Assembly: GCF_001021385.1 (NCBI RefSeq)
Contig: NZ_CP011773.1
Location: 2,170,001 to 2,234,000 of the forward strand
Direction of reading: 5' to 3'
Source of the DNA: Mycobacterium sp. EPa45
GTDB taxonomy: Bacteria; Actinomycetota; Actinomycetes; Mycobacteriales; Mycobacteriaceae
DNA: 64,000 nt
The notes below the pieces were generated by a model, which saw only the letters and a program-made list of their open reading frames with translations, had not been told where the DNA came from and made no database searches. The position numbers were made by a program, and so were the translations under genes. This document shows positions 2,466 to 19,143 of the stretch, one piece after another; positions within the stretch are counted from its first letter, which is position 1, and each line of letters opens with the position of its first letter.

Positions 2466-2673
2466 CGTGGCCACGGTCGAAGTATCGTCCCGCCGATATG
2501 CCGCCAGCATCCCCCGACCGGGGGAGCGGAGGGTGGAGCCTCACCCGGGCCGGCTGCCGGGACACGGCCTGGACTTCGGCCGTTTCCGGATGTAATCATC
2601 TGCGGCCGTGGCCTTTCGACACATTTGACAGGTGTCGAGTGCGATTGCCGTCCGATGGGGGTGCTCGCCCCAC

Positions 2674-2679
2674 TACGGT
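2674..2679 (+). promoter_or_regulatory. -10 box TACGGT of the response-regulator gene
   Basis: TACGGT ends 7 nt before ATG 2687. A second ATG at 2681 is only 1 nt downstream of the box, so the box selects 2687 (product beginning MTVRVVLVDDHE). The layout suggests a leaderless transcript for the two-component operon. Confidence 0.5.
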
Positions 2680-2686
2680 GATGTTC

Positions 2687-4542: not shown

Positions 4543-4586
4543 TGCCGAGCTCGACGTAACGGTGCGATCGTCTCGCCACTTTTCGC

Positions 4587-4616
4587 CGATATGTCGGTTT
4601 GGGCGCTGACGCGCCC
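4587..4616 (+). terminator. short hairpins in the kinase-P450 gap, including a copy of a repeated motif
   Basis: Bases 4591-4605 read ATGTCGGTTTGGGCG, identical to bases 4-18 of the element downstream of rpmB (50351-50365) and similar to 48270-48280. A second perfect 6-bp stem with a 4-nt loop (GGGCGC TGAC GCGCCC) occupies 4601-4616. The site lies downstream of the kinase stop and may end that transcript; there is no U-tract. Confidence 0.35.
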
Positions 4617-4618
4617 TC

Positions 4619-4624
4619 TACCAT
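4619..4624 (+). promoter_or_regulatory. -10 box TACCAT of the first P450 gene
   Basis: TACCAT ends 6 nt before ATG 4631, again a leaderless-type arrangement. It supports ATG 4631 over the TTG at 4628. Confidence 0.45.
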
Positions 4625-4630
4625 CGGTTG

Positions 4631-5839
4631 ATGCTGCTGGACCCGGCCGAGTTCTTCGGTGACAAGGCGATTCAGGACCCTTATCCGCTATATGCCCGGC
4701 TGCGTGCCGCCGGGCCGGTCCACCAGGTCGGCGATTCCGGGTTCTACGTGGTGTGCAACTGGGCCGCGATCAACGAGGTCGCTACCCGGCCGGAGGATTT
4801 TTCGTCGAACCTCACCGCGACGATGACCTATACCCCGGATGGCGGCGTGGCGCGCTTCGACATGGACCGGGTCGGCGGGCCGACGCATATCCTGGTTACC
4901 GCCGACGATCCCGTGCACGCGATCCACCGCAAATTGGTGCTATCGCAGTTCACGGCGAAACGGGTCAGAGGCTTCGAGCAGCTGATCGTCGACATCTTCG
5001 AAAAGCTCTGGGTACAGGGAGTTGTCGGCGGCCGGATCGAGTGGATGGCCGAGGTGGCCAATCGGCTGCCGATGATGATCGTCGCCCGGATGATCGGTGT
5101 TCCCGACGCTGACGTCGACCGGCTGGCGCACTGGGGCTATGCCACAACTCAGCTTCTCGACGGCTTGATGTCGGCCGACGAACTCGCAGCGTCGATGACG
5201 GCGATCACCGAACTCAACGGCTACATCGACCAACATCTGCGGCAGGCCATCGCCGACCCGCAGGACGACCTGATCGGTGATCTGGCCCGGGCGTGCTCCG
5301 ATGGCCGGCTGGACCACTTCACCGCGCAGCTCATCCTGGTGTCACTGTTCAGTGCTGGTGGCGAGTCCACGGCATCGCTGCTGGGGACCACGGTGTGGTT
5401 GCTGGCAACCAATCCCGGACTGCAGCAACAGCTTCGCGCGCACCCGGAGTTGCTGGGCGCCTTCATCGAGGAGACGCTGCGGTTGGAGCCGCCGTTCCGG
5501 GCCCACTACCGTCATGTGCTGCACGACACGCAGCTCTGCGGCGTCGAGCTGCCCGCGGGTTCCTTGGTCCTGCTTCTGTGGGGCGCGGCCAACCGTGATC
5601 CCGAGTATATCGACCGACCGAACGACCTGCGGCTCGACCGACGAAACATCAAGGGGCACCTGACCTTCGGCAAGGGCGCCCATTTCTGTCTGGGCGCACC
5701 GCTGGCGAGGCTGGAGGCTACGACCGTCCTGACGCTGCTGCTGGGGCGCACGACGTCGGTCACAGCTGTCGATGTGGGGCCGTGGTTGCCCAGCGTGCTC
5801 GCGCGTCGACATGAGTATCTCGAACTGATCGTGGACTGA
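4631..5839 (+). CDS. cytochrome P450
   Basis: Heme-thiolate monooxygenase of the soluble bacterial class, 402 residues. Visible motifs: I-helix oxygen-binding segment SAGGESTASL (241-250), K-helix ExxR (E281-R284, EETLR), and heme-binding loop FGKGAHFCLGAPLARLE with Cys353 as axial ligand. No ferredoxin or ferredoxin reductase gene is adjacent, so electrons must come from elsewhere. The substrate is unknown. It stands alone between the two-component pair and a convergent secreted-protein gene, with its own promoter-like -10 box. It is not a close copy of the second P450 (16574-17788). Confidence 0.93.
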   Translation: MLLDPAEFFGDKAIQDPYPLYARLRAAGPVHQVGDSGFYVVCNWAAINEVATRPEDFSSNLTATMTYTPDGGVARFDMDRVGGPTHILVTADDPVHAIHRKLVLSQFTAKRVRGFEQLIVDIFEKLWVQGVVGGRIEWMAEVANRLPMMIVARMIGVPDADVDRLAHWGYATTQLLDGLMSADELAASMTAITELNGYIDQHLRQAIADPQDDLIGDLARACSDGRLDHFTAQLILVSLFSAGGESTASLLGTTVWLLATNPGLQQQLRAHPELLGAFIEETLRLEPPFRAHYRHVLHDTQLCGVELPAGSLVLLLWGAANRDPEYIDRPNDLRLDRRNIKGHLTFGKGAHFCLGAPLARLEATTVLTLLLGRTTSVTAVDVGPWLPSVLARRHEYLELIVD

Positions 5840-5872: not shown

Positions 5873-7045
5873 CTACGGCGAGTCAGCCCACCGCGGTGGC
5901 CGTGCGACGTGCTGGGGTTGGGTCCCGTTCTTCGGCCTCGTTGCCGACCACGCAGTGCCTTCACAGATCAAGTCGTGCGGCATCGGAATCTGGGCGGGTA
6001 GCAGCGGACCGCCGGGGATCGCGTCGACGAGCGCCTGGACCGGCATCGGGGGTGCCAATGCCGCGGCATCGGGCAGTGTGGTGAGTCCGGCCGGAACCGG
6101 TGCTGCCGGTACGGGTGCGGCAGGAGCCGCAGCGACGGGAACCGGAGCGCCGAGGGGGAGCGGTGCTGGTGGCACCACGACCGGCACCGCGGCGGGCGGG
6201 ACCGGAGCCGGGATCGCGGCCGCCGAGTCGGCGACCGGAGCGGCCACGGCCGCTGGGGCGGAGTCAGGGATCGGAGCCGCCGCGGCTTCGGGAACGGGCG
6301 CGGTGGCCACTGCGGGTGCCGGAGCGCCGTCCGCGGTCAAGGAGAACAGTTCCGGGCCAGGCGCGGGTACGGCCGCCGGTGGTTCCGGCGCCGCGGGCAC
6401 CGCCGCGGCCTCTGCGACGGGTGCGGCTTGCGCAGCGGGTGCGGCGATCGGCGGCGCGGGCGAGATGTCGGCCACCGGAGTGACATCGGTGATCGGCGGC
6501 GCGACTACGGACGACGCCGTGGCGGCCGGCGGTGCGAGTGCCTCAACGGGTGCGACCGGTAGAACCGGAGCCGCTATCGGAACCGGAGCCGCCGCTGGGA
6601 CCGGGGCGGCGACCGGCGCAGCGGGGACGACCACCGGAGCGGGCACGACCGGCACCGGCAGCGCTGCCACCGGGATGACGGGCACCGCGGCCGGCGGTGC
6701 CGGGGCCAGGGCGCTGTCAACGATCGGCGCGGCCGCCACCGGTGGAGCAGCGACGGGAGCCGAAGCTGCAACCGGCGCCGCCGCGGCGGGTGCTGCGACG
6801 GGGGCGGCCGGCGCAGGAGCGGCGTCGGGCAGCGCACTGGTGAGCATTTCCGGCAGCGCTTCCGGCGAGGACGCGAGCTGCTCAATGATGTTGCCGCAGG
6901 GCACTCCTGGGGTCACCGCCGGATCGGCTCCGGCCAGCGGGCTGGCACACCAGCCCGACAAGATCAACGCGGCGATGCCAGCCGATACCGGTCGTTGGAT
7001 GATCGGTGACAACGCTTCCCCGTCCGTGTCGATCTTGATTGCCAT
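5873..7045 (-). CDS. secreted Ala/Pro-rich low-complexity protein
   Basis: The 390-residue product begins with MAIKIDTDGE, a hydrophobic segment AGIAALILSGWCASPLAGA and a cleavage-like ALAGA/D site, consistent with Sec export. A short ordered part with a Cys follows (GVPCGNIIEQLASSPEALPE). Then come about 270 residues of (P/A)VAAP-type low complexity, and a short C-terminal tail with a second Cys (IPMPHDLICEGTAW). The composition recalls mycobacterial Ala/Pro-rich cell-wall proteins such as Apa, but I see no assignable domain. ATG 7045 is preferred over the ATG at 7072 because it places the signal peptide at the usual distance. The opposite strand is open too but is a Gly/Ala-rich shadow. Confidence 0.7.
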   Translation of the reverse strand: MAIKIDTDGEALSPIIQRPVSAGIAALILSGWCASPLAGADPAVTPGVPCGNIIEQLASSPEALPEMLTSALPDAAPAPAAPVAAPAAAAPVAASAPVAAPPVAAAPIVDSALAPAPPAAVPVIPVAALPVPVVPAPVVVPAAPVAAPVPAAAPVPIAAPVLPVAPVEALAPPAATASSVVAPPITDVTPVADISPAPPIAAPAAQAAPVAEAAAVPAAPEPPAAVPAPGPELFSLTADGAPAPAVATAPVPEAAAAPIPDSAPAAVAAPVADSAAAIPAPVPPAAVPVVVPPAPLPLGAPVPVAAAPAAPVPAAPVPAGLTTLPDAAALAPPMPVQALVDAIPGGPLLPAQIPMPHDLICEGTAWSATRPKNGTQPQHVARPPRWADSP

Positions 7046-7093
7046 CAAGACCGTATCGGGTGGCGGGGTCAAATCAAGGCCGTGTCGATTCCT

Positions 7094-7621
7094 TTATGAA
7101 ATCGATAGCGGGCGGTCATAGGACGGATCCGTCCGGTCATGAGTTGCCGGACGCATCGTCGGCACCATCGCGATGACCTGTTCGGTCAGTTGCGATGTCG
7201 ACTCGGTGTTCCATTCCACGACGCACACCCGCGTGACGATCGCCCAACGCCCGTCGCGGCACTCGAGCCGGTCGACGTAGCGTCCGCCGGACCACGTCAT
7301 GTGGTCGGCAGGTTGTCTGTCGGTGCCGACGAACAGGTAGTAGGTCTCTGAGTGGGCGGTCTTGCCGTCGATCTCCGCGAAGTGGTTCAGCAGATAGTGT
7401 TGGTAGCGAGTCTGCGTCGAGTGGTAGGCGAACGCCCAATCGATGAAATCATCGACGTCCCCGACGAATCCGACGTGATCGTCGATCGCGCCATCGTGGT
7501 ACGCCGACCGCAGCAGCGCGCGGTCCTGTCTGTCCATCCCGCGGGCGTAACGCTGCATGCAGTCATGAATGTCAGCGCGGTCCTTCATCTCCCGAAGGTG
7601 GGGGAGCAGATCATCGATCAT
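7094..7621 (-). CDS. SnoaL/NTF2-like protein
   Basis: A 175-residue small alpha+beta-barrel protein of the SnoaL_4/NTF2 type. The N-terminal helix reads IHDCMQRYARGMDRQDRALL, followed by AYHDGAIDDHVGFVGDVDDF, a layout seen in ring-hydroxylating dioxygenase beta-like and SnoaL-like isomerase/dehydratase proteins of mycobacterial catabolic clusters. It is the last gene of the minus operon; its ATG overlaps the nitroreductase stop by 4 nt (7618-7621). Possible role as an isomerase, dehydratase or small binding partner for the pathway substrate; no catalytic claim can be made. Confidence 0.8.
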   Translation of the reverse strand: MIDDLLPHLREMKDRADIHDCMQRYARGMDRQDRALLRSAYHDGAIDDHVGFVGDVDDFIDWAFAYHSTQTRYQHYLLNHFAEIDGKTAHSETYYLFVGTDRQPADHMTWSGGRYVDRLECRDGRWAIVTRVCVVEWNTESTSQLTEQVIAMVPTMRPATHDRTDPSYDRPLSIS

Positions 7622-8265
7622 CTGGAGGCTCCGTTCCAGCCATTGAGGCCGATGACCTCGTCAAGTGGTCTTCGCGGGGCCGGACGGAACTCACGACCCG
7701 CGCGCAGCTTGGCCACCGGTAGCAGGCAGCCTTGGACGTAGGTATCCGGTATCCCCAACAACTCCCGCACCGCCGCTTCGTGGTGCAGATGCAGTGTGGT
7801 GATACAGGTGCCGTAGCCCCGGGTACGCAGTGCCAGTTGGAAATTCCACACCGCCGGAAAGATCGACCCGTACAGCGTCGCCAGGTAGAACGACTCGTCG
7901 CCGTGTGCACGCGGATACGTCGGCTCGTAGCAGGGGATCACCAGTACCGGCACCTGAGCCAGGTTCTCCACCAGCCACTCGGTCGAACTCATCAATGCGG
8001 CACCGGGCGTGCCGGCCGGGACGAGGTCCGCGATGAACTGACCGCCTACCTTGTCGAGGTAGGCCTTTCGGTAGAGGTCGGCGATCGCGGCCCGCAGCGC
8101 TTGATCGGTGATGACCAGCCACTGCCAGGCCTGCTGGTTGGATCCGTTGGCTGCCTGCAGCGCGATGCCCAGGCACTCGCGGATCTGGCCTACATCGACC
8201 GGCTCGCCGAGATCGAGCGCCTTGCGCGCCGATCTGGTTGTGGTGAGCAGGGTTTCGGTATCCAC
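7618..8265 (-). CDS. nitroreductase-family flavoprotein
   Basis: FMN-dependent oxidoreductase of the nitroreductase fold, 215 residues. N-terminal TTRSARKALDLGEPV gives the phosphate-binding Arg region; AANGSNQQAWQWLVI is the flavin-contacting segment; the C-terminal half has LGIPDTYVQGCLLPVAKLR, typical of the family. The GTG at 8265 is chosen because the longer open frame (to 8754) only shadows the amidohydrolase gene; this GTG starts 4 nt past that gene's stop. The natural substrate is likely a conjugated carbonyl or quinone-like intermediate rather than a nitro compound, but this is inference. Translationally coupled to the SnoaL gene. Confidence 0.87.
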   Translation of the reverse strand: MDTETLLTTTRSARKALDLGEPVDVGQIRECLGIALQAANGSNQQAWQWLVITDQALRAAIADLYRKAYLDKVGGQFIADLVPAGTPGAALMSSTEWLVENLAQVPVLVIPCYEPTYPRAHGDESFYLATLYGSIFPAVWNFQLALRTRGYGTCITTLHLHHEAAVRELLGIPDTYVQGCLLPVAKLRAGREFRPAPRRPLDEVIGLNGWNGASR

Positions 8266-8269
8266 GGCG

Positions 8270-9550
8270 TTACGTCGGGAGCTTGGCGGCAAGGTCGAGG
8301 ACCGTGACGGTGTCGGTGCCGGTCTTGCGCAACCGTTCCGACGACCGGAAGCCGAGGTCGACGTCGGTGGCCTGGGCTCGCAGTGCCCCCACGGTGAGTT
8401 GTTCCTTGGGGATGTGAGAGAACATGTCGAACGAGTACAGCCGCATCGCATTCTCGTGGGTGATTCGGTTGGTTTCGTCATCGCTGACGCCGTCGAGGTA
8501 GATCGCCAGCGTTTCGGGTGCCAAGGGCCAGGTCGAATCCGAGTGGGGGTAGTCGCATTCCCAGGTGACCATGTCGAGGTTGAGCTTGTCGCGACTCGCC
8601 ACACCGAACTCGTCGTCGATGAAGCACAGCGCGACTCGATCCAGGAACACCTCGCTGGGTAGCTTGTCGCCGAAGTCCTGATGGGTCCAGGCGCGGTGCA
8701 TTTTGTACACCCGGTCGATCCGTTCCAAAAAGTAGGGCACCCAGCCGATCCCACCCTCCGAGAGCGCGAACGTGAGATCGGGGAATCGACGGAGCATCGG
8801 TGACCAGATCAGGTCGGCCGCGGCTTGCACGATGCTCATCGGCTGCAACGTGATCATGGTGTCCACCGGTGCGTCGATCGACGTGATCACCACCGATGAC
8901 GACGACCCGATGTGCAGGTTCACCACGGTGTTCTCATCGCTGCAGGCCTGCCAGAACGGATCCCAGTGCGGGTCGTGCAGCGACGGGTAGTCGATCTTGG
9001 TCGGGTTCTCCGAGAAGGAGACCGCATGGCAGCCCTTCTTGGCGACCCGGCGCACTTCGTCGGCCATCAGCTGCGGATCCCAAATCGGCGGCAGCGCTTG
9101 TGGAATCATCCGCCCCGGATAGGTGCCGCACCACTCGTCGATGTGCCAGTCGTTATAGGCGCGCAACACCGCCAGCCCGAGTTCCTTGTCCTTCGCCCGG
9201 GCAAAGTACTGGCCACAGAACTGCGGGTAGGACGGAAAGTTCAATGCCGCGGCGACACCGTTGGCGTTCATATCGCGGATGCGTTCGTGAATGTTGTAGC
9301 AGCCCTCGCGAATCTCACTGAGCTTGGTCGGTTCGGCCCCGTACTCGTCGGGTGGGCGACCGGCTACCGCGTTGAGCCCGACGTTGGTGGCCTCCTGGCC
9401 CTCGAAGACCCAGGCATCGGTACCGTCGGCGCGCTGGATCAGTTTCGGGACGTCGTCGGAGTACTTGGCGGGGATGTGCTTGTCGAACATATCCGGCGGC
9501 TCGACCATGTGGTCGTCGACGGAAATCAGGACCATATCGTTCATATCCAT
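8270..9550 (-). CDS. amidohydrolase-2 family metal-dependent hydrolase
   Basis: A 426-residue TIM-barrel protein of the amidohydrolase_2 (ACMSD-related) family. The N-terminal metal motif reads ISVDDHMVEPPDMF, the form found in many actinobacterial paralogues. Further probable metal ligands are His in VVNLHIGSSS and Asp/His in WECDYPHSDSTWP. Members hydrolyse or decarboxylate cyclic acids and lactones. It sits 2 nt downstream of the SDR stop and 4 nt upstream of the nitroreductase start, so it is part of one operon with a divergent AAA+/VWA pair. It is a plausible metalloenzyme client of that pair, although this is inference. Confidence 0.9.
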   Translation of the reverse strand: MDMNDMVLISVDDHMVEPPDMFDKHIPAKYSDDVPKLIQRADGTDAWVFEGQEATNVGLNAVAGRPPDEYGAEPTKLSEIREGCYNIHERIRDMNANGVAAALNFPSYPQFCGQYFARAKDKELGLAVLRAYNDWHIDEWCGTYPGRMIPQALPPIWDPQLMADEVRRVAKKGCHAVSFSENPTKIDYPSLHDPHWDPFWQACSDENTVVNLHIGSSSSVVITSIDAPVDTMITLQPMSIVQAAADLIWSPMLRRFPDLTFALSEGGIGWVPYFLERIDRVYKMHRAWTHQDFGDKLPSEVFLDRVALCFIDDEFGVASRDKLNLDMVTWECDYPHSDSTWPLAPETLAIYLDGVSDDETNRITHENAMRLYSFDMFSHIPKEQLTVGALRAQATDVDLGFRSSERLRKTGTDTVTVLDLAAKLPT

Positions 9551-9552
9551 GC

Positions 9553-10527
9553 TCAGCTCCGTTGCGGCTCGGGGAATTCGACGTCGGCGCCGCCCGGCAT
9601 GGGGCTCACACCGAGGCGATCGCAGACCTCCAGGACTTCATCGACGATCGAGGTCGGCACGATGAACTTCTCGGTGGCGGATATCTGGTCAAGATGTGCG
9701 GCAATGTCTTCGGCGGACGGCTCGGTGTCGGCATCGGCGAGCCAGCCCTCACTGAGCCCGATGAATGCACGGGCGAAGCGCCCTGCGCACGCCGAGTAGT
9801 TGCGATGGCTGAACGTGCAGGCCGCACTCGCCAGGTACACCACGAGTGGAACCACCAGTTCGGGCCGGATGGCGCGCATGAAGCCGGATTCGGCGAGGAA
9901 TTTCTCGTCCCCGACGGTCTCGGTCACCATCCGCGAGAAGCCGGTTGGCAGTACCGCATTGGCCTGGATGCCGTGCGCTTCGCCTTCGATCGCAATGACA
10001 TTCGTCAAGCCGATCAGGCCCGCCTTGGCCGCCGCATAGTGTGCCTCCATCGGCTGGCCGAAGACACCTGCCGAGGAGGAGATGAACACGAACCGGCCGC
10101 CGCCACCCGTCTTCATGGCCCGGTAGGCGGGCTGGGACAGGTGGAAGCCGCCGTCGAGGTGCACGCGCAGCATCCGGGTCCAGTCGTCGTGCGAGAGATC
10201 TTCGAAGGCGACGCTGCCGAAGATGCCCGCGTTGCTGATCACCGCATCGAGGCGGCCGAACGCATCGACCGCCGTCTCGACGATCGCCGCTCCGCCCTCC
10301 GCGGTGTCGACCGAGTCGTGCGAGGCGACCGCGCGCCCGCCGGCGGCGGTGATCTCGTCCACCACCGAGTCTGCGACGGCGGCGTCCACGCCGTCCCCGC
10401 GCATGGTCGACCCGATGTCGTTGACAACGACGGCCGCGCCGCGCTTGGCCAGGTCGAGTGCATACAACCGGCCGAGCCCACGCCCGGCTCCTGTCACGAT
10501 CACCGATTGGTCCGTGAAATCGACCAT
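9553..10527 (-). CDS. short-chain dehydrogenase/reductase
   Basis: NAD(P)-dependent oxidoreductase, 324 residues. Rossmann motif TGAGRGLG at about 12-19, Asp-containing second strand VVVNDIG, NAG motif (SNAGIFG), catalytic Ser in FISSSAGVFG and YxxxK in HYAAAKAG. The Asp after the second strand favours NAD(H). The C-terminal extension of about 70 residues (ADTEPSAEDIAAHLDQIS) resembles the (3R)-hydroxyacyl-CoA dehydrogenase/HSD17B4-like SDRs common in mycobacterial lipid catabolism. It is the first gene of the minus operon; the divergent plus operon starts 148 bp away with an operator-like motif between them. Confidence 0.9.
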   Translation of the reverse strand: MVDFTDQSVIVTGAGRGLGRLYALDLAKRGAAVVVNDIGSTMRGDGVDAAVADSVVDEITAAGGRAVASHDSVDTAEGGAAIVETAVDAFGRLDAVISNAGIFGSVAFEDLSHDDWTRMLRVHLDGGFHLSQPAYRAMKTGGGGRFVFISSSAGVFGQPMEAHYAAAKAGLIGLTNVIAIEGEAHGIQANAVLPTGFSRMVTETVGDEKFLAESGFMRAIRPELVVPLVVYLASAACTFSHRNYSACAGRFARAFIGLSEGWLADADTEPSAEDIAAHLDQISATEKFIVPTSIVDEVLEVCDRLGVSPMPGGADVEFPEPQRS

Positions 10528-10617
10528 GTCGTCACCCTTGTCATTTCGGTTCAGATAACCGCGACCCCCGACACCGCAACGCGGTCAGTTGACTGCCGCA
10601 TGGCCGAACTCTACGGT

Positions 10618-10646
10618 GGAACAGATATTTGGTCAACAAATTCTGG
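10618..10646. promoter_or_regulatory. operator-like motif in the divergent SDR/VWA intergenic region
   Basis: The sequence GGAACAGATATTTGGTCAAC continues to an imperfect inverted half (CAAATTCTGG); its core is ATTTG-GTCAA-CAAAT. The block GGAACAGAT(A/G)TTTG recurs inverted at 12368-12385, and ATATTTGGT recurs in the palindrome in front of the tandem TetR gene (19113-19143). It is placed to control both divergent operons. Assignment to the TetR protein is inferred. Confidence 0.45.
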
Positions 10647-10674
10647 CGCGGGTCGGCGAGGGTGGAGGTGCTCG

Positions 10675-12369
10675 ATGGTCGACGACGACGAGCGGCTTGC
10701 CCGCCTTGCCGTGGTCGCCTCGGCGCTGGCCGGGCACCCGGTGGTCGTCGTGCCCGCGGAGCCGGGGTCACCGGCATGGACCGACGGGCAGAACATCTAC
10801 GTCGATCCCGCTGCGACGCACCGCGCAACCGTCGAGGCGATCGCCCTTCAAGCGTCCCTGATCGCGGCGGGCAGTCTGGATCCCGACATCGTCAGAGCCC
10901 TGAGTCGGAAGGGCCGGGTGGCGGCTCGGTACCTGGCTGTCGAGGGGCATCGCGCGCTGCTGGCCAATGCCGACGTGCTGCCCGGGATGCTGGCGTCGTT
11001 GGCAGATGCCGATGTGGCGCGTCGCAGCCACTCGGCGGCAGAGTCATTGGCGATCGCGAAGAGCCCGACGCCGATCCCTGCAGCGCCCGCACAATTCGGC
11101 GAGATCCGGCCGAAGCGGGTGCTCGAGATGATCGGACGCAGGGGCACAGTCACCGATCACGACACTGTCGGTCACATCCCGCGACGCAACGGCAAAGCCG
11201 AATTGGAAGAGCTCGACGACGGTGAAATGCCGACGGACGGAAACGATCCCGATCTGTTCAGCAGTCCGGTCGGTGGCGGCGGGTTCATCGGGAAGTGGCT
11301 CAAGAAGATGCTGTCATCCACCCGTGCGGGCAGTTCGGGCGGCGGCCCACCGGGTGCGGACTCACCGACGCACCGCACCAACGCGGCCACTCGTGGTGCC
11401 AGCGCAGTCTCGTCGACCGCCTCAGCGGGTATCGAGGACGGGACCGACGCCAAAGCCGGCGGCGTGACATACCCGGAATGGGACGTCAACCAGCGACGAT
11501 ACCGCCCGGACTGGTGCACCGTACGCGAGGTCGAACCACTGGTCGAGCCGGCAGCGTCGGCCGTCATCGACGACGCCATCGCATTTCGCCGGCCGCTGGC
11601 ACGCCTGGGGATGGGCCTGCACCGTCGGCACCGACAGCCACAGGGCGACGACATCGACATCGACGCCGCCGTGAGCGCCCGGGTGGAGGTGCGGGCCGGC
11701 TCGGTGCCGGATGAATCGGTCTACCTGGACAGTCTGCGCCGACGTCGGGACCTGTCGGTGCTGGTGCTGCTCGATGTGTCGGGATCGTCGGCCGAGGCCG
11801 GCACCGTCGGCAAGACGGTCCACGAACAGCAGCGGATCGCCGCCGCCAATCTCGTGGTTGCGCTGAACGACCTCGGCGATCGCGTCGCGCTGTACGCGTA
11901 CAACTCACAGGGCCGGACGGCCGTGAACGTCATGCCGATCAAGCGCATGGATGATCATCTGGACAGCCAGGTATTGCGCAAACTCAACAGTGTGCAACCG
12001 GTTGCCTACTCGCGCCTCGGGGCCGCCATCCGGCACGGAACCAGGGTGCTGGAGGAGCGCGGCGGCACGTCGCGGCGACTCCTCGTCGTCTTGTCGGACG
12101 GCCTTGCCTACGACCACGGCTACGAGCGCGGCTACGGCGCGGCCGACGCACGCCGAGCGTTGACCGAGGCGCGCAGGCGCGGCACCGGCTGTGTGTGCCT
12201 GACCGTCGGCGCGAGCGTCGATTCCGCCGACCTCCGCAATGTCTTCGGTACCGCCGCATATGCGGTCGTGGGCCGTCCTGAGCAGCTCACGGGCGTCATC
12301 GGGCCGCTGTTCCGATCGGCAGTCCGGGCCGCTGAAGTCCGCCGCCGCGTGTCGGCAACCCGCGCTTGA
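10675..12369 (+). CDS. VWA-domain protein, NorD/CbbO-like
   Basis: A 564-residue cytosolic protein with a variable N-terminal half and a C-terminal von Willebrand A domain. The MIDAS motif DVSGS lies at 367-371, with LSDG about 100 residues later. The combination with an adjacent NorQ/CbbQ-type ATPase is that of NorD-NorQ and CbbO-CbbQ, which remodel or insert metal into nitric oxide reductase or Rubisco; neither client is present here. Start ATG 10675 has GGAGG at 10664-10668, 6 nt upstream. The frame stays open to 9562, but that part only shadows the SDR gene. First gene of the plus operon. Confidence 0.85.
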   Translation: MVDDDERLARLAVVASALAGHPVVVVPAEPGSPAWTDGQNIYVDPAATHRATVEAIALQASLIAAGSLDPDIVRALSRKGRVAARYLAVEGHRALLANADVLPGMLASLADADVARRSHSAAESLAIAKSPTPIPAAPAQFGEIRPKRVLEMIGRRGTVTDHDTVGHIPRRNGKAELEELDDGEMPTDGNDPDLFSSPVGGGGFIGKWLKKMLSSTRAGSSGGGPPGADSPTHRTNAATRGASAVSSTASAGIEDGTDAKAGGVTYPEWDVNQRRYRPDWCTVREVEPLVEPAASAVIDDAIAFRRPLARLGMGLHRRHRQPQGDDIDIDAAVSARVEVRAGSVPDESVYLDSLRRRRDLSVLVLLDVSGSSAEAGTVGKTVHEQQRIAAANLVVALNDLGDRVALYAYNSQGRTAVNVMPIKRMDDHLDSQVLRKLNSVQPVAYSRLGAAIRHGTRVLEERGGTSRRLLVVLSDGLAYDHGYERGYGAADARRALTEARRRGTGCVCLTVGASVDSADLRNVFGTAAYAVVGRPEQLTGVIGPLFRSAVRAAEVRRRVSATRA

Positions 12370-12385
12370 AACAAACATCTGTTCC
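12368..12385. promoter_or_regulatory. inverted copy of the operator-like motif between VWA and AAA+ genes
   Basis: GAAACAAACATCTGTTCC, read on the other strand, is GGAACAGATGTTTG plus TTTC and matches 13 of 14 bases of the motif at 10618. It straddles the VWA stop codon and lies about 50 nt upstream of the AAA+ gene, so a second regulated promoter inside the operon is possible. Confidence 0.35.
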
Positions 12386-12434
12386 GCGATAGGGTGTCAA
12401 TCACCGCAGCGATGCGGGGAAGGGAAAGATAGTC

Positions 12435-13277
12435 ATGCCACAGCTCCCGGGCGAGCTCGAGCACCAGAACGGGGCTACCTACCTTCCCGTTGGGGAGCGT
12501 CCCTACTACCGGGCCGTCGGAAACGAAGAAGCCGTCTTCAAGGCGGCTTACCGACAAGGTCTTTCGCTGGTACTCAAGGGACCCACCGGCTGTGGCAAGA
12601 CCCGGTTCGTCGAGGCGATGGCCCACGATCTGGGCCGCCCGCTGATCACCGTGGCGTGCCACGACGACCTGACCACCGCAGACCTGGTCGGCCGCTACCT
12701 GCTGCGAGGCGACGAGACCGTCTGGGTCGACGGGCCGCTGACCCGAGCGGTCCGCGAAGGCTCGATCTGTTACCTCGACGAGGTCGTCGAGGCCCGCCAG
12801 GACACGACTGTGGTCCTGCACCCGCTGGCCGACTACCGCCGCCAACTGCCGATCGAGCGGCTCGGTGTGACGTTGGATGCCGCGCCCGGCTTCGGCCTGG
12901 TCGTCTCGTACAACCCCGGTTACCAGAGTGTGTTGAAGGACCTCAAGGACTCCACCCGTCAGCGCATGGTGGCCATCGAGTTCGGTTTCCCCGCAGCCGA
13001 AATCGAGGAAGGCATCGTGGCGCACGAGGCGGGCATCGACCCCGCGGTGGCCGCCGAACTGGTGCGCTTCGGCCAGGCGGTGCGCCGGCTGGAGACCGGC
13101 GGACTTCGCGAGGTGGCCTCGACGCGTGTGTTGATCGCGGCGGGCCGGCTGACCGCCGAGGGCTTGTCGATGCGCGAGGCGGCGCTCGCGGCGATCGCAG
13201 GTCCGCTGACCGACGATGCGGCCGTCTTCCGCGGACTCGCCGAGATGATCGACGTCTACCTCTGTGCACCCCACTAG
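12435..13277 (+). CDS. MoxR-type AAA+ ATPase, NorQ/CbbQ-like
   Basis: A 280-residue AAA+ ATPase with Walker A GPTGCGKT (49-56), Walker B ICYLDEV (111-117), sensor-1 region VVSYNPGYQS and the CbbQ/NorQ C-terminal domain. The N-terminal YYRAVGNEEAVFKAAY is typical of the NirQ/NorQ/CbbQ/GvpN branch. The protein would form a hexamer that works with the VWA partner as an adaptor to activate or insert metal into a client enzyme. The client is unknown here; the operon's amidohydrolase, AveC-like membrane protein and P450 are candidates. It is 65 nt after the VWA stop and 17 nt before the binding-protein gene. Confidence 0.9.
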   Translation: MPQLPGELEHQNGATYLPVGERPYYRAVGNEEAVFKAAYRQGLSLVLKGPTGCGKTRFVEAMAHDLGRPLITVACHDDLTTADLVGRYLLRGDETVWVDGPLTRAVREGSICYLDEVVEARQDTTVVLHPLADYRRQLPIERLGVTLDAAPGFGLVVSYNPGYQSVLKDLKDSTRQRMVAIEFGFPAAEIEEGIVAHEAGIDPAVAAELVRFGQAVRRLETGGLREVASTRVLIAAGRLTAEGLSMREAALAAIAGPLTDDAAVFRGLAEMIDVYLCAPH

Positions 13278-13294
13278 ACGACCCAGGAGATCGA

Positions 13295-14413
13295 ATGTCT
13301 TACGAGAGCAGCGCTGAGCCGATCAAAGTCGGCTATCTGATGGACTTCACGCTGCCGCCCGGCTTTCCCGAAGAGCTCCTGTCGTCGTTCACCCGGTGCT
13401 TCGACCTGGTCTTCGAGGAGGCCATGGCCGACGGCCTCATCGACCGGCCGGTACAGATGATCTACAAAGAGGTCGAGGGGTTGCCCAAAGGCAGCGTCAA
13501 GGCCGTGATCGACGCCTACGGCGAACTCGTCGACGAGGGCGCTCTGGTGGTGTTCGGTCCGAACATCACCGACAACTGCGTGCCGCTGCGTGAGGCGATC
13601 GAGGAACGCTTCAGAGTTCCCGCGATCAGCGTGACCGGCACCGACGACTGGCTCGGCGAGTGGACGTTCTCGTTTCCGCAGGGCTCGATGACCGACGAGC
13701 CGATCTTCCTCGCCGACTTGATCGCAAAGCGCGGATTGAGCCAGATCGGTGTGCTGGTCGAACAGAGCCTGATCGGCGAAAGCTATCTGAAGAACCTGCG
13801 AAGTGCCTGCCGGCACAAGGGCATTCGGATCGTCGCCGAGGCGGCCATCGCCCAGACCGCGCAGGACATCGACGACGCAGTCCGCTCGCTGCACGAGGCC
13901 AAAGCAGAGGCGATCGTGCACTTGGGCTTCGGCTTCGGCATCGTCTTCGTCAATCCGGTGCTGGACGCGCTCAACTGGGATCCGCCGCGGTTCACCACGA
14001 CCGCCTTCCAGAACGCCTGGGTCAATCCGATCATGTGGAACGCGTTCATGGGCTGGGTCGGCGTCGACCAGTACGACGAGGGCAATCCGATCGGGCAGGC
14101 GTGGCTCGACCGCTACGCCGAGCGCTACGACGGCAGCCGGCCCGAGTACTGCGTGACGGTGGTCAACCACGACGTGGCCGCCACGCTGGTGCGCGCGTTC
14201 GCGGACTCACACCCGCTCAGCCCGCGCGGAGTCAAAGAGGCGTTGGAGCGCGTGAAGATGATGCCCGCCGCGTCCGGCGCCCCGGGAACCCGTGTGTCGC
14301 TGGGCAAATGGACGCGACGGGCGTGGATGGGGGCCGGATATCTGGTGGCGCGCAGGCTCGACGCCGACGGCGTCAATTCGCATCTGGTCGATCGCTTTGG
14401 AGAGGAAGGCTGA
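13295..14413 (+). CDS. ABC-type (Peripla_BP_6) ligand-binding protein without a signal peptide
   Basis: The 372-residue product has the type I periplasmic-binding fold of branched-chain amino-acid/amide binding proteins: KVGYLMDFTLPPG at the start, VVFGPNITDNCVPLREAIEE, VPAISVTGTDDW and IGVLVEQSLIGESYLKNLR. It starts at ATG 13295 with MSYESSAEPI and has neither a signal peptide nor a lipobox. No permease or ABC ATPase genes are adjacent. A cytosolic, AmiC-like sensor or carrier of a pathway compound is therefore more likely than an uptake component. It is embedded in the operon, 17 nt after the AAA+ gene and 4 nt before the AveC-like gene. Confidence 0.82.
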   Translation: MSYESSAEPIKVGYLMDFTLPPGFPEELLSSFTRCFDLVFEEAMADGLIDRPVQMIYKEVEGLPKGSVKAVIDAYGELVDEGALVVFGPNITDNCVPLREAIEERFRVPAISVTGTDDWLGEWTFSFPQGSMTDEPIFLADLIAKRGLSQIGVLVEQSLIGESYLKNLRSACRHKGIRIVAEAAIAQTAQDIDDAVRSLHEAKAEAIVHLGFGFGIVFVNPVLDALNWDPPRFTTTAFQNAWVNPIMWNAFMGWVGVDQYDEGNPIGQAWLDRYAERYDGSRPEYCVTVVNHDVAATLVRAFADSHPLSPRGVKEALERVKMMPAASGAPGTRVSLGKWTRRAWMGAGYLVARRLDADGVNSHLVDRFGEEG

Positions 14414-14417
14414 CTCG

Positions 14418-15551
14418 ATGACAACGCAGGAATCCGCCCCGGCACCGTTACCCACCGAGTCGAAGCGCTCCGGCCCCAACTGGGGGCGGGTGATCTCGCT
14501 GGTCGCCTGGCTGGCCTTCCTCGGGCTGTTCGTCGCCGTCGGCCGCACCGACGTCGATCCTCGGGTGGCCAACCCGAACGTCGAGGGGCGGCCCCGTCCG
14601 GTCGAGTTCCTCACCGGGTGGGATCACTGGCAGCTGGTGCCGCAGATCGGCGCCGCGATCATGGTCGCGGCGCTCACCATCGTGTTCATCCGGGGCTGGC
14701 GCAAGAATCCGGGCAGCCCCGTATTGCTGATGGTGCTCTGCACGACGCTCATCGTGTGGCAGGACCCGATCATGAACTGGTCGCCGTATGCGGTGTACAA
14801 CCCGATGTTGTTGCACTGGCCGGAATCCTGGTACCTGATCATGATGTCGCCGACGGTCGAACCGTTCATCGTATTCGGCTACGTGACGTTCTACTTCGGT
14901 CCGTACTTCCCGGCGATCTGGATTCTGCGCAAGCTGCAGGCCAAGTACGGCCCGGAATCCTTCGTCACCCGGCATCCGCTGATCAGCCTCGGTGGGTTGG
15001 TACTGGTCATCGGGTTCATCTTCGATGCCATCCTGGAGATCAGCCTGGTCCGCACCGGCCTCTACATCTACGCTCAGGCGATACCGTTCGGAACTCTGTT
15101 CCCCGGCAGCACGTTCCAGTTCCCGCTGCTCTGGGAGTCGCTGTCGGTGACGTTCGTGATGATCCCGGCGGCCATCCTCGTCTACCGCGATGACACCGGG
15201 AAGTCGGTGGCGGAGAAACTCGCAGCGAAAGCCAAGCTCTTCCCGACCAAGCCGGTACTGGGCACCTTCCTCGTGATGTTCGCGATCATCAACGTGTCGT
15301 ACTTCGTTTATGGCGGCTGGTTCTGGGTGATCAAGGCCAGCGGCGCCGCCACCTCGGTGGCTTGCCCGTGGCCGTATCCGGAGGCCAAGGTGTACGACCC
15401 GCAGGGCAACTACGAGAAGGCCGGTGCGCAAGGACCGTTCTCGGTCGGCAAGTGGTCGACGTGGCAGCAAGGTCTGCCGGACGGTCGCCCCGACGTGACG
15501 CCGCCACCGCCTGGCGAAGGCACCTGCGCACCCGGTGCCGCGAATGGCTAA
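14418..15551 (+). CDS. AveC-like polytopic membrane protein (spirocyclase family)
   Basis: A 377-residue integral membrane protein with about 7-8 hydrophobic helices (for example ISLVAWLAFLGLFVAV, LISLGGLVLVIGFIFD, TFLVMFAIINVSYFV). Conserved polar stretches include WQDPIMNWSPYAVYNPMLLH and FPGSTFQFPLLWESL, and the C-terminus is Pro-rich. Such proteins are annotated in mycobacteria after AveC, the dehydratase/spirocyclase of avermectin biosynthesis. No polyketide synthase is present, so the substrate here must be different, perhaps a lipid or terpenoid. The 3' end overlaps the next SDR start by 8 nt. The family call is from recalled family character; enzymatic role is inference. Confidence 0.75.
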   Translation: MTTQESAPAPLPTESKRSGPNWGRVISLVAWLAFLGLFVAVGRTDVDPRVANPNVEGRPRPVEFLTGWDHWQLVPQIGAAIMVAALTIVFIRGWRKNPGSPVLLMVLCTTLIVWQDPIMNWSPYAVYNPMLLHWPESWYLIMMSPTVEPFIVFGYVTFYFGPYFPAIWILRKLQAKYGPESFVTRHPLISLGGLVLVIGFIFDAILEISLVRTGLYIYAQAIPFGTLFPGSTFQFPLLWESLSVTFVMIPAAILVYRDDTGKSVAEKLAAKAKLFPTKPVLGTFLVMFAIINVSYFVYGGWFWVIKASGAATSVACPWPYPEAKVYDPQGNYEKAGAQGPFSVGKWSTWQQGLPDGRPDVTPPPPGEGTCAPGAANG

Positions 15552-16551
15552 CGGACGCACGGTCGTCATCACCGGCGCGGCACGCGGTTTGGGGTTCGCC
15601 TCGGCGGTGCGGCTGTACCGAGAGGGTTGGCAGGTAGTGGCCGCTATGCGGACTCCGGACCGCGGCATGCCGCTGCTCCGCGAAGCGACCGGTGCAGCCG
15701 AGGACGACGATCGTCTCATCGGGGTGGCCCTCGACCTGATGGACCTGGACTCGGTTGCCAACGCCGCCAAGTCAATCGAGGAACGTGTCGGAGCGCCGTA
15801 CGCCCTCGTGCACAACGCAGGCATCTCCTCGGCCGGGATGGCCGAGGAGACAGACGTCGAGCTGTGGCAACGGATGTTCGCCACCCACGTGGTCGGTCCG
15901 GTGGCGTTGACCAACGCGCTGCTGCCGTCGATGCGGGCCGCGGGGGAGGGCCGGATCGTTCTGGTATGTAGCTCGGCCGGGGTGCGCGGGCAGCCTGCCA
16001 CCGCGCCGTACTCGGCGAGCAAGGGCGCCATGGAACGCTGGGGCGAATCGTTGGCATCCGAGATCGCACCCTTCGGTCTCGGAGTGACAGTTCTGATCAC
16101 CGGAACCTACGACACCGAGATCATCACCGACGCCGGCACCACGGACGACCGTGACTTCGGTGGCCCCTACGCGCGGCTTCACCAGACGATGAACACCCGT
16201 GGCCGCTTCGCCATGAAACTGGCCAGGTCGCCGGAGCGGTTCGCCGACGGGTTGGTCAAAGCGCTGGCCGACCGTGGCCCGTTCCGCCGCCATGGGGTCG
16301 GCCCGGATGCGTCGATGTTGTTGGTGGCCAACAGAGTTCTGCCGCCTGCAGCGATGCACCAGATGTCGCGGATCGTGCTGGGCATCCCCAGGCAAGGTTC
16401 GATGCGCAACGGCGCGTACCCCCTGACCGCGGCCCAGAAAGCGATGGTGCTCGGCATGAAAGTCATTCCGCAGCCGGTGATGCAACGCATCGTCGCGATG
16501 GCGGCCACACGTTCCACTGCCAAACAGCCACCGCAGCAACCGACTGACTGA
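15544..16551 (+). CDS. short-chain dehydrogenase/reductase
   Basis: A 335-residue SDR with TGAARGLGFA at the N-terminus, Asp-containing LDLMDLDS, NAG motif (HNAGISSAG), catalytic Ser in VCSSAGVRGQ and YxxxK in APYSASKGAM. A C-terminal extension with basic and hydrophobic character (about 60 residues) may associate with membrane or partner proteins. The ATG at 15544 overlaps the end of the AveC-like gene; a GTG 9 nt upstream is the alternative. It is followed after 22 nt by the P450 gene, suggesting alcohol/ketone chemistry on the same substrate that the P450 hydroxylates. Confidence 0.9.
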   Translation: MANGRTVVITGAARGLGFASAVRLYREGWQVVAAMRTPDRGMPLLREATGAAEDDDRLIGVALDLMDLDSVANAAKSIEERVGAPYALVHNAGISSAGMAEETDVELWQRMFATHVVGPVALTNALLPSMRAAGEGRIVLVCSSAGVRGQPATAPYSASKGAMERWGESLASEIAPFGLGVTVLITGTYDTEIITDAGTTDDRDFGGPYARLHQTMNTRGRFAMKLARSPERFADGLVKALADRGPFRRHGVGPDASMLLVANRVLPPAAMHQMSRIVLGIPRQGSMRNGAYPLTAAQKAMVLGMKVIPQPVMQRIVAMAATRSTAKQPPQQPTD

Positions 16552-16573
16552 TCACGAATCTCAAGGAGCAGTA

Positions 16574-17788
16574 ATGGAACAACTTTTCGATGACCTCGAC
16601 GACTTCGGCTCGTTCGACGACGTCGTGTCCGGCAATGTGCGCGACCCGTTCCCGGAACTGGCCCGGTTGCGCCGAGAGGAGCCGGTACAGCGCATCGAAG
16701 GTTCCGCCATGCCGGGAGAGGCCGGTCTACCCGTTTTCATCGTGTACCGGTTCGAGGAGGCGCAGCAGATGTTGCGTGACAACGAGACGTTCTCGTCGTC
16801 GGGCGTCATCGCCGCCTTCGGGCCGGTTCTGGGCGAGCGCGTGATGCTCGGCATGGATGAACCAGTGCACGGCCGGTTGCGGGCGCTCATCTCGAAAGCT
16901 TTCTCGCAGAAGTCACTTGCGCGTTGGCAGGACGAACTGGTTGCGCGGGTGGGCAACGAGCTGATCGACTCCTTCGCCGCCAACGGTAAGGCCGACTTGG
17001 TGAAGGAGTTCACCTTCGCCTATCCGAGCCGGATCATCGCGGGATTGTTGGGGTTACCGGAGGAGGACTACCCGCAGTTCCAGCGCTGGTCGATCTCGCT
17101 GTTGAGCTGGATCATGAATCCCGAACGCGGCCTGGCCGCTTCGGCGGCATTGGTCGAGTACTTCAAGCCGATCCTGGCGGCCCGGCGGATCGAGCCCCGC
17201 GACGACCTGATCAGTCTGCTGGCCGCCGCGGAGATCGACGGCGAGAAGCTCGAGGACGAGGAGATCTTCTCGTTCCTGCGGCTGCTGCTTCCCGCCGGCG
17301 TGGAAACCACGTACCGGTCGCTGGGCAATCTGCTGTTCGCACTGTTGTCGGATCCCGCGCAGTTGGAGGCGGTGCGCAACGATCGCTCGCTGCTCCCGCA
17401 GGCGATCGAGGAAGGCGTGCGGTGGAATCCGCCGCTGCTGACCATCACCCGGGTCGCCACCCGGGACACCGAATTGGGCGGTGTGCCGATTCCCGCCGGG
17501 GCGTCGGTGATGCCGATGCTGGGTGCGGCGAACCGGCAGGAGGACCGCTTTCCGGACCCGGACGAGTTCGACATCTTCCGCGAGCCGCGCAGCAACCTCG
17601 GCTGGGGGTACGGCGTGCACGTGTGCCTCGGGATGCATCTGGCGCGACTCGAGATGCGCACCGCCGTGAACCTGCTCCTGGACCGTCTGCCCAACCTGCG
17701 GATGGACCCCGACGGCGACGACCCCCACATCCGCGGCCAGGTCTTCCGTTCTCCGACGTCGTTGCCGGTGCTGTTCGACCCTCAGTAG
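16574..17788 (+). CDS. cytochrome P450
   Basis: Soluble bacterial P450, 404 residues, last gene of the plus operon. Motifs: I-helix AGVETT (241-246), ExxR E280-R283 and heme loop GWGYGVHVCLGMHLARLE with Cys351 as thiolate ligand. The leader AGGAGCAGTA gives a good ribosome-binding site in front of ATG 16574. No redox partner is encoded nearby. Its position behind the AveC-like protein and SDR suggests hydroxylation of the cluster substrate. Its stop abuts the stop of the convergent TetR gene with no gap. Confidence 0.94.
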   Translation: MEQLFDDLDDFGSFDDVVSGNVRDPFPELARLRREEPVQRIEGSAMPGEAGLPVFIVYRFEEAQQMLRDNETFSSSGVIAAFGPVLGERVMLGMDEPVHGRLRALISKAFSQKSLARWQDELVARVGNELIDSFAANGKADLVKEFTFAYPSRIIAGLLGLPEEDYPQFQRWSISLLSWIMNPERGLAASAALVEYFKPILAARRIEPRDDLISLLAAAEIDGEKLEDEEIFSFLRLLLPAGVETTYRSLGNLLFALLSDPAQLEAVRNDRSLLPQAIEEGVRWNPPLLTITRVATRDTELGGVPIPAGASVMPMLGAANRQEDRFPDPDEFDIFREPRSNLGWGYGVHVCLGMHLARLEMRTAVNLLLDRLPNLRMDPDGDDPHIRGQVFRSPTSLPVLFDPQ

Positions 17789-19078
17789 CTAGGGTCGTTT
17801 GACGACGACGCCGCGCAGCATTGTGTCGCGGACGCACAGCAGCGACGCGCGGGTGCCCACCTGCCGCAAGATGCTTTCAGGAATCCAGCCGACACCGATG
17901 ACCGCGCGTGCCAACAGATCATTCGATGGACTGTCGATGCTGATCTCGCCGGACTGGATGCCTTCGGACAGCAGGGTTTTCATCTGACGTACCCGCTTGG
18001 TGAACAGCCATCCGGGATTGGGCGTGTCCGGCGGAGACTGCCGCATCCACGCCAGCTGGATCCGGAACTCGTCGGCGAAGCGGTCCATTGCGTTGGTGTT
18101 GATCCAGCTGAGCGCATCCAGCTTCTCCACGATCGAGGACTCCGCCGCGAGCACCTCGGACCAGCCCATGGCGACCTTCTCGCCGAACGACTGCATGATC
18201 GCCGCCAGCAGCTGGTCTTTCGATCCGATCAACCGGTACACGGTGCCGGTGCCCATTCCCGCGGCCGATGCGATGTCACGCACCGTCGTGACTTCGTAGC
18301 CCTTCTTGCCGAATTCAGCTCTGGCGATGGCGCGTACGTGGGCAGCTTTGTCGCCGGATTCGGCGTCGGCGTCATCGGTCCAGGACCGCACGACGGCGTC
18401 GGCGGCCCTGAATGCCGCGGATGAGTCCAGTTGTTCGTCGGTGGGGAAGCCGGTGGCCAGGCCCTCGAGAAGGATGTGGCACAGCAGGACTGCTGATTTG
18501 TCCGGACCGGCGTTGCCGCGGATGACGTCGAGCCCGATCTGCAGCATCGTCTGCACGATGCGCTCCGCGAGAACGGCCAAGTCGACATCTGACCGCAGGT
18601 AGCCGCTCCAGCGCGCCGCCCGAAGGGTTTCCAGCATCGACTGCAGCAGGGCAGTGGGGCGGCGCGCCGCCAGGGTGGTCAGCTCGTGGTTCGAACTCGG
18701 TCCCTCGTAGAACGACATCTGCAAGGCGGCGCGATGGGTGACCGAGCAGTGCGCGATTGCCCTGCACAGGTCGGCGATCTGGTTGAACGCCGGCCGGAAC
18801 TCCGGGTCGTTGAGCCGGCCCTGCGCCTCGTTGGCGATTCGGTCCAGGTCCTCGTGGTAGCGGAGGAGCAGCTCGACGAGGATCGCTTCTTTGGAGTCGA
18901 AATGGTGATAGAGACTGCCGGGGAGAATGCCTGCGGCGTCAGCGATTTCCTGCAGCGAGGTCCGCAGCCCGGACGTCGCGATGATCGAGGCCGCAGTCTG
19001 GAGGATCTCCGTGCGACGGGTGCCGTCGTCGTAGGCATTGCCGGTGCCCAGCTTCGGCGTCATGCGCGACCGACCCAC
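17789..19078 (-). CDS. tandem (double) TetR-family regulator
   Basis: The 429-residue protein contains two complete TetR units in one chain. The first helix-turn-helix is TSLQEIADAAGILPGSLYHHF (split here as TSLQEIADAAG and GSLYHHF) near residues 40-62. The second is TTVRDIASAAGMGTGTVYRL near 270-290, each followed by a ligand-binding domain. Such a fusion would give a pseudo-dimer that binds an operator as a single chain. It closes the AveC/P450 cluster, convergent with the P450 gene. A palindrome upstream (19113-19143) is a likely autoregulatory site. The start is GTG 19078 behind GGAGG; ATG 19063 is the alternative. Confidence 0.88.
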   Translation of the reverse strand: MGRSRMTPKLGTGNAYDDGTRRTEILQTAASIIATSGLRTSLQEIADAAGILPGSLYHHFDSKEAILVELLLRYHEDLDRIANEAQGRLNDPEFRPAFNQIADLCRAIAHCSVTHRAALQMSFYEGPSSNHELTTLAARRPTALLQSMLETLRAARWSGYLRSDVDLAVLAERIVQTMLQIGLDVIRGNAGPDKSAVLLCHILLEGLATGFPTDEQLDSSAAFRAADAVVRSWTDDADAESGDKAAHVRAIARAEFGKKGYEVTTVRDIASAAGMGTGTVYRLIGSKDQLLAAIMQSFGEKVAMGWSEVLAAESSIVEKLDALSWINTNAMDRFADEFRIQLAWMRQSPPDTPNPGWLFTKRVRQMKTLLSEGIQSGEISIDSPSNDLLARAVIGVGWIPESILRQVGTRASLLCVRDTMLRGVVVKRP

Positions 19079-19112
19079 GACTCCTCCAAGCTGACTCCGG
19101 TACCCAGCTGAC

Positions 19113-19143
19113 CCAATATTTGGTAGACGCTACCAGAAATTGG
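19113..19143. promoter_or_regulatory. palindromic operator upstream of the tandem TetR gene
   Basis: Arms of 14 nt, CCAATATTTGGTAG and CTACCAGAAATTGG, are separated by ACG and match at 12 of 14 positions. It lies 35 nt upstream of the GTG start of the TetR gene, where autorepression is usual. It shares ATATTTGGT with the motif at 10618 and a TTTGGTAGA half-site recurs at 19205. Binding by this TetR is inferred. Confidence 0.55.

Follow-up and report, generated by a model that had tools for sequence, protein, structure and literature searches.

A conserved mycobacterial gene cluster in which an AveC-like membrane protein is the likely client of a NorQ/NorD-type AAA+/VWA pair

We analyzed a stretch of 64,000 nucleotides, hereafter the window, from Mycobacterium sp. 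EPa45 (positions 2,170,001-2,234,000 of a 6.18 Mb genome in a single contig), which carries a gene cluster encoding a NorQ-type AAA+ ATPase, a NorD-like von Willebrand factor A (VWA) protein and an AveC-like membrane protein. The right-hand operon of this cluster and the regulator gene that faces it consist of the following genes (SDR, short-chain dehydrogenase/reductase):

10675..12369, + strand: VWA, NorD-like protein with a C-terminal VWA domain (Pfam VWA_2/CoxE)
12435..13277, + strand: AAA, NorQ-type MoxR AAA+ ATPase (Pfam AAA_5 and CbbQ_C)
13295..14413, + strand: binding protein (Peripla_BP_6), signal-less, the frame opening directly on the first domain residues
14418..15551, + strand: AveC-like integral membrane protein (AveC_like, PF17198, E = 6.6e-65)
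15535..16551, + strand: SDR2, SDR oxidoreductase (Pfam)
16574..17788, + strand: P450b, cytochrome P450 (Pfam)
17789..19078, - strand: double TetR, with two TetR_N stretches (Pfam), facing the right-hand operon

A divergent left-hand operon is listed further below. Every gene that an earlier, sequence-only reading of this DNA had named was recovered as an open frame at its proposed position and annotated by Pfam, and the two tightly packed divergent operons that it described are borne out by the coordinates, neighbouring genes inside each operon overlapping or lying no more than 65 bp apart.

Few clients are known for the widespread MoxR AAA+/VWA pairs. The proposal that the window encodes a dedicated pair of the NorQ/NorD type was corroborated: the best PDB match of AAA was NorQ (9qh4, E = 1.6e-91), followed by CbbQ (6l1q, E = 4.3e-89), that of VWA was NorD (9qhd_G, E = 2.1e-38, residues 259-550), and VWA-AAA-(x)-AveC is collinear in 77 of 80 related loci. 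AAA shows the features of the NorQ/CbbQ subgroup (AAA_5 with CbbQ_C, Walker A and B, sensor 1); in 124 AAA open reading frames (ORFs; copies included, 113 distinct) the Walker A and B patterns were found throughout and the sensor-1 pattern in 122. At E values up to 0.1, VWA had two distinct matches in the PDB, namely NorD and the von Willebrand chain of the NorQ entries 9qh6/9qh8. Its metal ion-dependent adhesion site (MIDAS) comprises DVSGS and a downstream SDG, and the MIDAS pattern DxS[GA]S was present in 120 of 128 VWA ORFs (fragments included). The MIDAS threonine position is occupied by serine in the window protein, which we do not class as a NorD, and by serine in 109, threonine in 4 and no recognizable pattern in 15 of the 128 ORFs. 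As serine retains the hydroxyl, the window VWA may, to judge from its sequence, work like NorD.

According to the available parts of two reports, NorQD remodels cNOR for insertion of FeB into the membrane protein with docking of NorD, the MIDAS of which probably contacts an acidic patch of the cNOR membrane subunit (PMC9976466, PMC13036017). The window pair resembles this system in its NorQ-subgroup AAA with CbbQ_C, in a VWA protein that aligns to the VWA half of NorD and in genes that adjoin a membrane-protein gene; it differs in that this neighbour is AveC-like and not NorB/NorC, that the N-terminal half of VWA is not alignable to NorD, and that serine replaces the MIDAS threonine. With CbbQ-CbbO, a Rubisco activase, it shares the AAA subgroup, but no match to the RuBisCO large chain was found in the whole genome. 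Likewise, no NorB-type (COX1) client lies near any of the NorQ-like genes of the whole genome (2.18, 3.06 and 5.06 Mb), the two COX1-type genes at 1.97 and 2.12 Mb both being far off, and the Pfam annotations of the cluster, in the absence of a separate search, contain no polyketide synthase. The earlier statement that cNOR, Rubisco and a polyketide synthase are missing thus stands within these scopes.

The third NorQ/NorD-like pair of the same genome, at about 5.06 Mb (L009:10003-12050), has no known client and no AveC beside it. Its flanks hold a Bestrophin-like protein, a P450 that shares 57% identity with P450a (a further P450 of the window), and two small proteins of 233 and 215 aa that open similarly and match no Pfam family. 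Pairs lacking the enzymes of the window, which the sequence-only reading had named as a finding that would speak against it, therefore exist in the NorQ family at large; none was seen in the AveC-linked subgroup.

Next we evaluated the conservation of the cluster. A scan of named genomes with AAA gave 363 relatives, the best 80 of which were kept as loci; selection by AAA similarity (83% or more) makes these loci closely related and not independent of one another, some of them lying on the same contigs as the 20-locus set described below. The closest clusters occurred in records of Mycolicibacterium, Mycobacterium and Mycolicibacter. The order VWA-AAA-(x)-AveC was collinear in 77 of these 80 loci from named mycobacterial records, the remaining three being L091, which has no VWA and starts 624 bases from the contig start, L105, the one type I locus without an adjacent AveC, and L075, which carries an extra VWA copy but whose gene order is collinear after all. 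This goes beyond chance juxtaposition. Per 80 loci, we counted AAA in 80, VWA, AveC and P450b in 79 each, SDR2 and the binding protein in 78 each, double TetR in 69, aldehyde dehydrogenase in 64, SDR1 in 54, nitroreductase in 41, a second P450 in 38, SnoaL in 21 and amidohydrolase in 3. The right-hand operon VWA-NorQ-binding protein-AveC-SDR-P450 together with the double TetR gene is a conserved mycobacterial module, to which the amidohydrolase, nitroreductase and SnoaL genes of the left-hand operon are accessory. The view that the whole stretch forms one system was not upheld, the left-hand operon being variable among the 80 loci. In L075, the VWA-AAA pair is tandemly duplicated (874-4201 and 8176-10840), with an AAA in the first copy that is incomplete relative to the model.

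The AveC-like protein scored 219.2 bits against PF17198 (cut-off 26.6), a family detected in 16 of 396 actinobacterial genomes (above the cut-off in 15). Neighbourhoods were taken for all PF17198 matches and for later AveC matches except one fragment; one weak PF17198 match (L144) that our own AveC model did not find was dropped. An AveC search of 61 genomes gave matches at E ≤ 1e-10 in 23 genomes, all in the genus of the window, at 35 places, of which 20 stretches formed a first set and the remaining ones were added later. In this first set, 17 of 20 stretches (L015-L030, L032) carry VWA, AAA, binding protein, AveC and P450b, two (L031, L033) have the order AveC-VWA-AAA with neither binding protein, P450b nor SDR2, and one (L034) is decayed. 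Nine type II loci (L010, L115-L122) show the order AveC-AAA-VWA and lack P450b and the binding protein, L010 also lacking SDR2; TetR, AveC, AAA and VWA are the only families present in all nine, the next one occurring in five. In L138, from a genome of another family, AveC is followed by VWA, with AAA further on. The AveC proteins of the type II loci and of L135-L138 are 20-23% identical to that of the window. In the decayed locus (L034 of genome G029), AAA is gone, VWA is a fragment and the truncated binding-protein frame continues into an AveC remnant; P450b, aldehyde dehydrogenase and double TetR are still present, and no AveC match was found in this genome.

These data bear on the question, raised by the sequence-only reading, of whether the pair keeps company with one particular enzyme: AAA/VWA travels with AveC in several gene orders (77/80 collinear; type II; L031, L033, L138). 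Its three candidate clients are hence narrowed to AveC as the constant companion, the amidohydrolase lying near 3 of 80 clusters and P450b being absent from one type I cluster (L040) and from the type II and III loci and kept where AAA/VWA are gone. That a cytochrome P450, or the P450/SDR2 pair, is the client is quite unlikely. P450b and SDR2 do occur in 79 and 78 of the 80 clusters, a few database proteins are AveC-SDR fusions, and L031 (type III) has another P450 nearby; however, L010, L031 and L033 have neither P450b nor SDR2, P450b is absent from L115-L122 and L040, the latter keeping AveC, and G029 retains P450b despite the loss of AAA. We also know of no P450 that needs a NorQ/VWA-type pair. 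The fusions (P0004, P0097, P0110, P0114, P0147; assigned by Pfam domains) could be real or could reflect sequencing frameshifts at an overlapping gene pair. Equally at issue is whether the genes merely travel together on a mobile catabolic island and no chaperone-client relation exists, as accessory genes that differ widely among loci might suggest. This is very unlikely, given that the linkage survives different gene orders in lineages with AveC only 20-23% identical to that of the window, and that the genes were lost together in G029.

To relate AveC residues to linkage, we compared 174 AveC ORFs (161 distinct), classed as linked when AAA and VWA lie within 5 kb; four AveC pieces of fewer than 200 model positions (two in L032, one in L034, one in L162) were excluded. 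The five carboxylates D116, E148, D203, E207 and D259 were kept in 122/122 linked ORFs (111/111 distinct) and in 3/52 unlinked ORFs (3/50 distinct), 'short' AveC paralogues carrying E, V, A and N at the first four of the five positions. This correlation is strict and statistically not independent: in a tree built from 53 rows of reduced redundancy, without the trait columns, linkage needs 4-5 changes.

Because of the linkage in other gene orders, the joint decay in G029 and the five-carboxylate correlation, AveC is the likely client. We consider it somewhat probable that the core of the cluster combines a maturation unit, in which NorQ/VWA acts on AveC, with a lipid or terpenoid oxidation pathway. 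Several observations weigh against this reading. Linkage alone does not prove a physical client. The five residues are kept in three unlinked ORFs (L135, with AAA and VWA several kb off; L136, with VWA adjacent and no AAA seen; L137, at a contig edge), the large 'short' AveC group forms a single clade, and part of the neighbourhood is unseen for 27 of the 52 unlinked ORFs, which have a locus end within 3 kb. The tree yields only four independent pairs, with residue differences in the same direction in two cases and no difference in two (sign test, p = 0.5). The genome of L105, which has no adjacent AveC, carries two AveC genes elsewhere, one apparently on the same contig, and L032 has AAA/VWA with AveC and VWA split over frames. 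No histidine is conserved across 15 aligned AveC proteins, and an all-carboxylate site could serve acid catalysis rather than metal binding. Fold comparison with an AlphaFold2 (AF2) model of AveC (pLDDT 81.8, pTM 0.81) gave no clear structural relative, and the alignment of VWA to NorD is confined to residues 259-550, leaving the N-terminal half unaligned.

The missing histidine bears on an explanation in which NorQ/VWA would serve AveC as an activase or assembly factor and insert no metal, the carboxylates performing acid catalysis as in a cyclase or dehydratase. The reaction of AveC is a dehydration/spirocyclisation, and CbbQO acts on inhibited Rubisco. The linkage evidence is the same as for maturation with a metal, and AAA+ machines repair Rubisco, as stated in the available part of one source (PMC5437159). 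Nevertheless, the nearest relatives of both window proteins include the metal-inserting NorQ/NorD, though CbbQ is nearly as close to AAA, and we regard this activase role as possible but rather unlikely. With AveC of avermectin biosynthesis, the namesake of PF17198, the window protein shares the Pfam family, Streptomyces AveC itself lying outside the comparison; the window cluster differs in being annotated without a polyketide synthase and with beta-oxidation-type partners.

If AveC is matured by the pair, the most likely course is that the NorQ-type AAA+ ring and the NorD-like VWA protein jointly remodel it: the VWA MIDAS would dock on an acidic patch of AveC, and the AveC active site would thereby be completed. 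Either the active site or the docking patch could be formed by D116, E148, D203, E207 and the RDD loop (D258/D259); following the NorQD precedent, the acidic RDD loop might be the docking patch and the other four residues the site, and by the same analogy AveC may bind a metal. Together with the P450 and the SDR, joined in most genomes by aldehyde dehydrogenase and acyl-CoA dehydrogenases, matured AveC may then act on a cyclic, hydrophobic lipid or terpenoid, which would be oxidised to an acyl-CoA and subsequently degraded. The signal-less binding protein and double TetR would sense the substrate, with TetR acting at a promoter box, AACANATATTTGGT. More tentatively, it is possible that NorQ-linked AveC proteins represent a new class of integral-membrane metalloenzymes with a carboxylate site assembled by the pair, the 'short' paralogues of the same genomes having given up the site as well as their dependence on the chaperone.

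The system is of the MoxR AAA+/VWA maturation kind, with the AveC-like protein as a new partner, and this recurrent pairing offers a new, testable client family. Should AveC-type enzymes fail on expression by themselves, it points to a possible cause, and the 'short' paralogues without the pair provide natural controls. The cluster furthermore marks a regulated oxidation pathway common to many mycobacteria, for which our literature searches found no published description. A further AveC-like group (L150, L151, L152, L159), 26-29% identical, occurs without NorQ/VWA; in-frame stops were reported for the matches in L150, which belongs to the genome of the window, and L159.

The pathway is probably catabolic, as had been proposed: aldehyde dehydrogenase is present in 64 of 80 loci, and the flanks contain two acyl-CoA dehydrogenases (54 and 53 loci), a thiolase (25) and an enoyl-CoA hydratase (22), flank families having been clustered at 40% identity with one representative of each named by Pfam. 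The PDB list of P450b is headed by CYP125MRCA (E = 5.8e-66). For the signal-less binding protein, we propose a role as a cytosolic ligand binder. Locus L014 carries a 71% identical binding protein and a 69% identical double TetR together with P450s and an aldehyde dehydrogenase and has no NorQ/VWA.

Double TetR contains two TetR_N units as described earlier, an architecture already known from Mce3R, which binds non-palindromic DNA according to the available part of its description (PMC11667970). Both proteins have two TetR units per chain and a similar length (429 residues in the window, 406 in Mce3R); they differ in their gene neighbours, and the match to Mce3R (PDB 9b7y, E = 5e-10) is weak and limited to residues 21-150 in the first unit. 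Upstream of the VWA gene, a TACGGT hexamer is followed by GGAACAGATATTTGGTCAAC, and copies of the box were located as follows:

10620..10637, + strand: putative operator, exact pattern match just downstream of the TACGGT -10-like hexamer, before the VWA operon
19107..19128, both strands: putative operator upstream of the double TetR gene
12370..12383, - strand: weaker box copy with 2 mismatches, between VWA and AAA

The window contains three pattern matches (two of which are a single place read on either strand) vs 0.02 expected. The ATTTGGT core was found in 85 of 99 regions upstream of VWA (80/92 distinct) and, on either strand, in 59 of 88 upstream of double TetR (45 forward, 14 reverse; 57/83 distinct), vs 2 of 99 upstream of the binding protein (2/93 distinct; shuffling gives about 0.5). 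The shared promoter box ties the VWA operon to the double TetR gene, and double TetR presumably binds it. Genome-wide, AACANATATTTGGT occurs exactly at two places, in the window and in L164 (5274000-5293900 of the same genome), which also holds a one-mismatch place; allowing up to two mismatches, 22 places were listed vs 6 for the reversed pattern, some of the two-mismatch places probably arising by chance. L014 has a two-mismatch site between its binding protein and double TetR genes. In L164, box copies precede a WS/DGAT gene and a DGAT-like acyltransferase gene, and the locus also encodes a P450 (49% identical to P450b), an SDR, an aldehyde dehydrogenase, CoA-transferases, a KshA-type Rieske protein and a molybdopterin oxidoreductase.

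The divergent left-hand operon comprises four genes:

9553..10527, - strand: SDR1 (Pfam), semi-conserved
8270..9550, - strand: amidohydrolase (Amidohydro_2), candidate DitZ/PtmU3-like dinuclear oxygenase, accessory
7618..8265, - strand: nitroreductase-family protein (Pfam), start inside a longer mechanical ORF, accessory
7094..7621, - strand: SnoaL_4 protein (Pfam), accessory

The best PDB matches of the amidohydrolase were DitZ (8uyr, E = 6.2e-109) and then PtmU3 (E = 6e-34), a non-heme diiron hydroxylase. Alignment to both by eye showed all ligand positions (D-x-H, H, E, D-x-x-H-x-D), that is, three histidines, three carboxylates and, two residues past the last histidine, the extra acid; ligands are named for AibH2, and the extra acid for dinuclear members, in the available part of one paper (PMC7782822). 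Because of these matches and the kept dinuclear ligand positions, the protein is probably a C-H oxygenase and not a hydrolase, accessory here. It shares these positions with PtmU3, AibH2, SfbO and DitZ; unlike in those systems, no Rieske protein is annotated in the window cluster. As a real metalloenzyme candidate it could itself be the client, a dinuclear metal oxygenase loaded by NorQ/VWA, and a relative (36% identity) lies near AveC-AAA-VWA in L010. Its presence in the flanks of 3 of 80 clusters and in 0 of 20 first-set loci makes this most unlikely, as does the finding, in the available part of the source, that diiron sites could be accommodated by four family relatives produced in E. coli with iron supplied (PMC10811679).

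To the left of the cluster, the window encodes, at 2498-5839, a LuxR-type response regulator and a GAF histidine kinase directly followed by P450a, for which two-component control is possible. A protein encoded between P450a and the cluster (5873-7072) consists mostly of Pro/Ala/Val repeats and has no Pfam match.

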